DNA from: Oscillospiraceae bacterium
GTDB taxonomy: Bacteria; Bacillota; Clostridia; Oscillospirales; CAG-382
Direction: 5' to 3'
Assembly: GCA_015065165.1 (NCBI GenBank)
Contig: SVQU01000005.1
Span: 1 to 64,000, forward strand
DNA length: 64,000 nt
The translations under genes were made by a program, and so were the position numbers. Shown piece by piece: positions 57,946 to 59,930 of the stretch (positions are counted from its first letter, which is position 1; every line of letters begins with the position of its first letter). The notes under the pieces are model-generated. The model worked only from the letters and a program-made list of their open reading frames with translations. It made no database searches and was not told the DNA's origin.

Positions 57946-59319
<1,374 letters not shown>

Positions 59320-59671
59320 GGCGCTTCGCTTTCCATTGAAAACACACGGTTTTCAATGGGGATTGTGAGTTTCGTTCGCTCGCGCCAAGTTTGTGCGCGG
59401 CACTTCGTGCCTTGTCCAAACTTGCGAAACTCTAAGGAATAAAAATCGACGCACGTGTCGCCGATTTTTATGGAGATTTCATTGTATGACGCTTCGCTTT
59501 CGAAGAAAAACGCTTGTTTTTCTTCGGTTTAGCACCTTCGTTCGCTCGCGCCGAATTTGTGCATAAATGTCCAAATTCGCGAAGGTGTAAGGTATAAAAA
59601 TCAACTTATGGGGTCCTCGCAAAATGCAATTTTGTGGGGTGTGAATCTAATGTCCTTGATTTTTATGGGAA
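59320..59671. repeat. Two degenerate tandem copies of a multi-stem inverted-repeat element (A ~59320-59471; B ~59488-59671)
   Basis: Same order of four paired stems in both copies; shared spacer 'ttcgctcgcgc'; see findings for coordinates. Confidence 0.85.
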
Positions 59672-59801
59672 TTTAAATATAAAACGGGCAAATCCTTTGC
59701 CCGTTTTGTTTTAGGTGAGCAAGACTCTGCATTCACCTATTTTGTAGAGGACGGCGTCCTCAACTATTGGTTGTAAACCAAAATACACAACGGAGGTCTT
59801 T

Positions 59802-59924
59802 ATGGCTAAAAGAAGAAAACAAAAACGATTTTTTATGAAGAAAAAGAATTCGGTGATTTTGTTCGTTCTTTCTCTTTTGGCGTTTATCGGCGCATTCGCA
59901 CTGTTGGTTTATATGAACAAATAA
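59802..59924 (+). CDS. Small single-TM protein (40 aa), not in the ORF track
   Basis: RBS 'cggagg' then ATG: MAKRRKQKRFFMKKKNSVILFVLSLLAFIGAFALLVYMNK*; polybasic N-terminus plus one hydrophobic helix. Confidence 0.65.
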   Translation: MAKRRKQKRFFMKKKNSVILFVLSLLAFIGAFALLVYMNK

Positions 59925-59930
59925 ATATAA

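Follow-up and report, generated by a model that had tools for sequence, protein, structure and literature searches.

Several kinds of small mobile DNA resemble the element described in this study. IS1272, a member of the IS1182 family, targets terminator stem-loops, and the family, together with the MITEs derived from it, inserts into stem-loops, above all terminators (PMC4923244). IS1272 deletes the target stem-loop and makes no duplication; its authors have also drawn an alternative pathway that doubles the complete stem-loop through joining at the 5' feet (PMC5678879). IS1549 and IS1634, of the IS1634 family, make long direct repeats of variable length, 8-514 bp (PMC2266710). The REP and BIME sequences, with their RAYTs, are palindromes tagged with GTAG and CGTC (PMC3733652), and bcr1 of Bacillus cereus, BOX of pneumococcus, ERIC and NEMIS are intergenic repeats of 100-200 bp that fold, look mobile and often lie in UTRs (PMC3446304; PMC2267715).

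The feature studied here is located directly downstream of gdhA in a ruminant-gut Clostridia bacterium, within a window of 64,000 nucleotides, which is the whole stretch of DNA that was analysed. It is likely to consist of two copies, one abutting the other, of a mobile DNA element that is non-autonomous and MITE-like in behaviour. This reading draws on the dispersal of the element and its different copy numbers between genomes, the presence of arrays, occupied and empty orthologous sites, direct repeats, abutment to terminators, and covariation of the Watson-Crick type.

The element shares with the IS1549 and IS1634 elements the long and variable flanking repeats, but a transposase of the IS1634 family is present in none of the 24 genomes of the window's genus. 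Like REP and BIME sequences, it is a small dispersed intergenic palindrome near gene ends, but it is far larger, has several hairpins and no tag, and most of its carriers lack a Y1 transposase. It resembles bcr1, BOX, ERIC and NEMIS in size, folding and location, but the sequences and hosts differ, and extreme covariation by double changes and long direct repeats have not been reported for these repeats in the open-licence literature, where bcr1 was compared through secondary descriptions. The element also resembles the IS1182-derived MITEs, in that the outer ends of the elements in families f13 and f14 (CAGNNTGTCGA/TCGACAGNCTG) and the duplication of whole terminators match local IS1182-family elements. 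However, the window's genus has neither such ends nor the transposase, and its duplications are longer, variable and mostly not hairpins. Furthermore, a multi-hairpin interior with covarying stems has not been described for MITEs in the open-licence literature. Judging from sequence comparisons, the element may thus be considered a variant of the small mobile intergenic repeats, for which we found no earlier description in that literature.

Structure of the two copies downstream of gdhA

The gdhA gene (57973-59319, forward strand), which is named after the original prediction and its sequence as a glutamate dehydrogenase gene, ends with a stop codon at 59319 and has an orthologue in 23 of the 24 genus genomes. 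The original prediction described a tandemly duplicated four-stem element in the 352 nt that follow. All arms that it quoted were recovered where it had placed them, and the tandem arrangement was confirmed, although the limits are better set at 59320-59487 for copy A and 59488-59680 for copy B, both on the forward strand, with the boundaries of copy A being set by comparison with other copies. The stems are far beyond chance: the 352-nt stretch contains eight perfect inverted repeats whose arms measure 8 bp or more and add up to 75 bp, whereas 500 dinucleotide shuffles had on average 0.5 repeats (4.3 bp) and at most 43 bp, with none reaching 75 bp. The covariance model identified no third copy in the window.

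The element is roughly 155-165 bp long and consists of at least four hairpins, the loops of which are conserved, and of an AT-rich tail that is conserved as well. The order in the aligned copies is H0, H1, the linker TTTTGTGAG, H2, the linker AAGGT, H4 and the tail ATTTTATTGTAT. H0 is a short GC-loop-GC hairpin, and H1 is a variable stem with an A-tract and a T-tract. H2 has the form NNNTTCG/CGAANNN and is placed around H3, which contains an inner hairpin, and a mini-hairpin of 2 bp in TTCGCTCGCGCC, in which columns 19-20 covary with columns 25-26. In H4, an A-C mismatch is conserved, and the loop holds the motif NANGCRCNTGTC. The element contains no ORF, and no terminal inverted repeats are recognisable in the window's genus, where the 5' end is TCGCTTCGCTCTC and the 3' end is ATTTTATTGTAT.

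Copy A extends from H0, directly after the gdhA stop codon, to the end of the tail TTCATTGTAT, and is matched by the covariance model at 59360-59473 (120.8 bits, E 2.7e-28). Its H0 (59320-59333), the short 5' hairpin GC-TTC-GC in the context GCTTCGCTTTC, is conserved in the genus copies and holds the piece gcttcgctttc, which had been singled out as conserved and unpaired. H1 (59334-59358; CATTGAAAAC/GTTTTCAATG) corresponds to the predicted stem 1. H2 (59367-59432; GAGTTTCG/CGAAACTC) encloses the mini-hairpin (59378-59385) and the nested H3 (59386-59424; CAAGTTTG/CAAACTTG), with the inner hairpin GGCAC/GTGCC (59399-59411) inside the latter. H4 (59439-59471; ATAAAAATCGACG-CACGTGT-CGCCGATTTTTAT), corresponding to the predicted stem 4, contains both the conserved A-C mismatch and the loop motif, which is also found in other families. 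The 3' end is formed by the tail GGAGATTTCATTGTAT (59472-59487), in which ATTTTATTGTAT is conserved.

Copy B abuts copy A and ends at the foot of the gdhA terminator. It was found by blastn as well as by the covariance model, with a match at 59526-59668 (74.6 bits) that is 143 positions long rather than the usual 114 or so. The copy contains H1 (59501-59526; CGAAGAAAAAC/GTTTTTCTTCG), H2 (59533-59587; CACCTTCG/CGAAGGTG) and, within it, H3 (59552-59579; CGAATTTG/CAAATTCG), followed by H4 (59594-59666; ATAAAAATCAA/TTGATTTTTAT). The extra hairpin of this copy (CCTCGCAAAAT/ATTTTGTGGGG; 59615-59639) is an insertion nested in H4, and similar nested hairpins occur in L152, L017 and other copies. It belongs to a type, CCCC-AAAA..TTTT-GGGGACCCC, that in some copies replaces H1 or interrupts H4 or H3. 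Hairpins of the form CCCC-AAAA..TTTT-GGGG followed by ACCCC were also observed, free-standing or nested, at five other loci (L009, L010, L012, L016 and L017), and families f3 and f20 usually have this hairpin as their H1.

The 3' end of copy B adjoins the 5' foot of the probable intrinsic terminator of gdhA (59681-59712, forward strand; AAAACGGGCAAA-TCC-TTTGCCCGTTTT followed by GTTTT), which was assigned from its sequence and the list of junctions and was missed by a simple terminator scan. Since this terminator is located behind the element, the element is probably transcribed in the gdhA 3' UTR, and both copies would then be part of the gdhA mRNA, forming a structured 3' UTR ahead of the termination site. 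The element would also give the 3' UTRs of many genes of rumen and hindgut Clostridia a structured segment. Further downstream, at 59803-59925 on the forward strand, there is a 40-codon ORF, MAKRRKQKRFFMKKKNSVILFVLSLLAFIGAFALLVYMNK, with a basic start and one transmembrane stretch, and a similar small ORF is located directly after gdhA in G015 (L171).

Covariation of the stems

That pairing rather than sequence is conserved, as the original prediction proposed from two copies, is strongly supported by the alignment of 132 distinct copies. In this alignment, 95.1% of the cells pair, and both sides have changed in 31 of the 35 pairs. The covariation score was 0.572, as compared to 0.169 +/- 0.005 for the shuffled alignments, and double changes were seen in 1122 cells as compared to 385 in the shuffles, with only 17 one-sided changes, although the size of the effect is inflated by an alignment that was fitted to the structure and by the relatedness of the copies. 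The score fell to 0.13-0.16 when partners were slid by one column, and the first set of 25 copies, which was checked by hand, gave the same picture. H1 alone is represented by 58 different stem sequences in 71 copies, nearly all of which are complementary.

The covariation is real, but it is not RNA-like. G-U (G-T) pairs make up 22 of 4307 cells (0.5%), as compared to 40 A-C mismatches when the fixed A-C of H4 is left out. RNase P RNA from 14 genus genomes, which served as the G-U control in place of tRNA because the fetched loci contained only two tRNAs, showed the usual G-U-rich pattern, with 80 double and 46 one-sided changes. Terminators provided a weak control, as the asymmetry in 206 hairpins was mild (52 G-T and 28 A-C). 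The scarcity of both one-sided changes and G-U pairs suggests that both strands need Watson-Crick pairs, or that the arms are mutually corrected. The pairing of the element is therefore probably kept mainly at the DNA level.

These pair statistics bear on the suggestion in the original prediction that the element is a 3' UTR structure or a non-coding RNA, with hairpins that are selected as RNA in a 3' UTR or small RNA regulating or stabilising the upstream mRNA. The element is in sense orientation behind genes in 93 of the 119 classifiable copies, it starts right after the stop codon and ahead of the terminator, and it has conserved loops and strong covariation, as a functional RNA would. For the comparable bcr1-bcr18 repeats of B. 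cereus, moreover, about half of the cases are transcribed within a UTR or an operon (PMC3446304). However, G-U pairs show no excess over A-C, unlike in RNase P RNA, and the opposite strand folds equally well, with an RNA folding z-score of -4.6 for the opposite strand of copy A, as compared to -3.8 for copy A itself and -3.6 for copy B. Close relatives also differ in whether the element is present at the same gene, copies are found in antisense orientation and within arrays, and there is no Rfam match in the window at the gathering score. Selection for an RNA structure is thus quite unlikely as the reason for the pairing, even though some copies may act in 3' UTRs. Among the options in the prediction, the evidence favours the non-autonomous hairpin repeat, which agrees with the dispersal, the arrays, the occupied and empty sites and the long direct repeats. 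More generally, strong covariation need not mean functional RNA, since covariation tests can also be passed by DNA elements; missing G-U pairs are the warning sign.

In H4, the A- and T-tracts seem to have been exchanged as a matched pair, from AAAA/TTTT to TTTT/AAAA, without intermediates. Among the 132 copies, 66 have a U-tract after the stem and 65 have the reversed polarity (TTTTT...AAAAA). This bears on the idea that H4 is an intrinsic terminator, possibly bidirectional, and the element a portable terminator cassette. In copy A, the G+C-rich core of H4 is followed by TTTTTAT, and the terminator scan flags H4 as terminator-like, but the reversed copies have no such tract after the stem, and a separate terminator is located behind the element at gdhA and at other sites, which makes a cassette extremely unlikely. 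In the alignment columns 214 and 277 of H4, a conserved A is opposite to a C in 80 of 131 copies and to a T in 51. The A-C mismatch on the element strand corresponds to a G-T wobble on the other strand, and is a possible strand mark.

Distribution of the element

The genome of the source bacterium (G000; 1.67 Mb) contains about 25-30 copies. A blastn search of this genome gave 25 matches; on contig C1, five nearly identical copies form a tandem array. A covariance model of the element core, of the kind that the original prediction had put forward as a check for further copies, yielded 27 matches in this genome and 10-41 in most carriers. At least one match was obtained in 14 of the 24 genomes of the genus, and across the order in 32 of 247 genomes, representing 16 of 126 sampled genera, with lower scores and more divergent forms outside the genus. 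An exact-pattern scan of named genomes retrieved ruminant-gut "Clostridia bacterium" MAGs and one MAG labelled Proteobacteria, which could be misbinned.

Another repeat, GTAGGGGCGATTCACGAATCGCCC, which is REP-like with GTAG beside a palindrome, is common around the element (L006, L009, L015 and L049, on contigs of G000 and G006). It has no match within two mismatches in the window.

Insertion sites and flanking direct repeats

The gdhA 3' site was compared in 23 genomes. The element is present in G000, G018, G002 and G009, rearranged in G022, and represented by a divergent copy in G021 and by a remnant in G020, while the site is empty in six genomes (G005, G012, G006, G007, G014 and G019). Considering all sites, a same-strand stop codon is located within 6 nt of the start of H0 in 24 of 78 copies, as compared to 0 of 23 when the neighbour is antisense. 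Behind H4, the first terminator starts at a distance of 0-19 nt in 11 of 121 copies and of 20-39 nt in four, after which there is about one per 20-nt bin, so that for 11-15 of the 121 copies of the window's genus the tail adjoins a terminator foot. The proximity to stop codons and terminators may be explained by insertion at the foot of terminator hairpins, since terminators closely follow stops. In families f13 and f14, the insertions are at terminator stem-loops, and the whole terminator is duplicated.

The ends of the element are flanked by direct repeats of 22-160 bp, of which the 5' repeat ends at H0 and the 3' repeat starts at or near the end of the tail. Direct repeats with a local-alignment score of at least 40 were found for 20.5% of the 132 copies as compared to 1.4% of the controls with mismatched flanks. 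In the other families, f13 and f14 among them, 13 of 25 copies but none of the controls had flanking repeats at this threshold. These repeats mostly correspond to a complete terminator hairpin, whereas most repeats in the window's genus are not hairpins. About 80% of the genus copies have no flanking repeat, either because of their age or because none was made. Several of the repeats contain a ribosome-binding site and a start codon, as in genes that we take from the encoded N-termini to be dnaE (up to codon 19), rlmH and rpiB. At these sites, the upstream repeat copy is a gene fragment and the downstream gene is intact, and long duplications thus explain how insertions that interrupt an essential gene, for example dnaE, within its first codons can be survived. 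In two species, the same insertion, with diverged flanking repeats, is found after codon 9-10 of a gene encoding MAKQHWKGGALLAPVPAV... (L109 in G002:C28 and L113:1493 in G005:C62), and was either inherited or made twice.

Alternatively, the direct repeats could have arisen not as target-site duplications but through slippage of replication, or a switch of template, at the hairpins, which would duplicate the locus in tandem, with one element being lost later. Arrays with a unit of element plus flank (G000:C1, L137 and L224) are in line with this explanation, as is the 5' repeat copy at L113 (rlmH), which contains the tail of the element. Remnants of the element are present outside the repeats at L027, L071, L105 and L152, and those at L027, L071 and L152 suggest that local tandem duplication explains part of the repeats. 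However, neither flank holds a remnant at L122 (dnaE) or in the terminator cases of G207 and G255, where this explanation would call for an exact loss, and it leaves the spread to new sites and genomes unexplained. As a general account of the repeats, local duplication is therefore unlikely. At L152, we also considered that stem arms had been copied from the target, and rejected this in favour of a better explanation, in which an older copy has left a remnant that is connected with a terminator through CTGTCCTT.

Candidate mobilising enzymes and mechanism

To identify the mobilising enzyme, four enzyme types were searched for, with the reservation that many genomes are incomplete, so that single absences mean little; G000, which is 97% complete, contains none of the four. 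The IS1634 family was rejected on its absence from the genus. The Y1/RAYT type (PF01797) was identified in 2 of the 14 carriers and reverse transcriptase (PF00078) in 5, and both were rejected since neither tracks the presence of the element. The single Y1 gene near a copy, at L128, is located behind a separate terminator. The IS1182 transposase (NF033551) was identified in none of the 14 genus carriers, and the end pattern of the IS1182 type, CTTTTTCGACAGNCTG, is absent from G000 and G012.

Movement by a single-strand transposase (HUH/Y1, REP-RAYT-like) or by SINE-like, target-primed reverse transcription would account for hairpins that look recognised by shape, for the lack of a terminal inverted repeat in the genus and for the long variable duplications. 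In a few cases (L122 and L113), the tail resembles the start of the repeat, and there are extra bases at the 5' junction. In addition to the distribution of the enzymes, however, the aligned copies contain no GTAG or CGTC tag, and the strict Watson-Crick pairing speaks against an RNA intermediate. Both routes are considered very unlikely.

The families f13 and f14 provide direct support for another mechanism. The f14 genomes contain intact IS1182-family elements with the ends CAGACTGTCGAA/TTCGACAGTCTG, located between two copies of a terminator hairpin (L258 and L259). The short elements of f13 and f14 have the ends CAGcgTGTCGA.../...TCGACAGTCTG, which are nearly those of L258, the comparison being within the same family of genomes and not always within the same genome. 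The flanking repeat of the insertion sequences L258 (G037:C44) and L259 (G176:C8) is a complete stem-loop of about 31-34 bp. No pairs of IS1182-type ends 1-2 kb apart were found in G207, G255, G238 and G244, which only contain the ends of the short element. The many natural insertions with whole terminators duplicated correspond to the outcome of the alternative pathway in the IS1272 model (PMC5678879).

On the basis of these ends and duplications, an IS1182-type mechanism is well supported for the f13 and f14 elements, and it is only our best guess for the window's genus. The likeliest process would be a structure-dependent transposition of the IS1182 type that uses stem-loops as targets, with direct support only in the related families. 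At gdhA, the mobile element would have inserted behind the stop codon and ahead of the terminator, where the terminator stem-loop has its foot, and a tandem duplication would then have given copies A and B. The pairing may be kept because a transposition or repair machinery handles the DNA hairpins, as cruciforms or single strands, or because the arms are corrected against each other. Taken further, and only as a tentative possibility, the copies could belong to an order-wide class of DNA elements whose recognition and copying rely on the shape of several hairpins. In such a class, stems would be rewritten in matched pairs while loops are fixed, and an uncharacterised enzyme would duplicate 20-160 bp of the target, restoring the genes or terminators that are cut.

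Finally, three species of the genus (L010 in G000, L055 in G005 and L053 in G020) have the element at the 3' end of their queA gene, and an element array is located at the same position in another family (L224 in G131). The ends of queA are duplicated at these sites, and the queA 3' end is either a hot spot or the site of a very old insertion.
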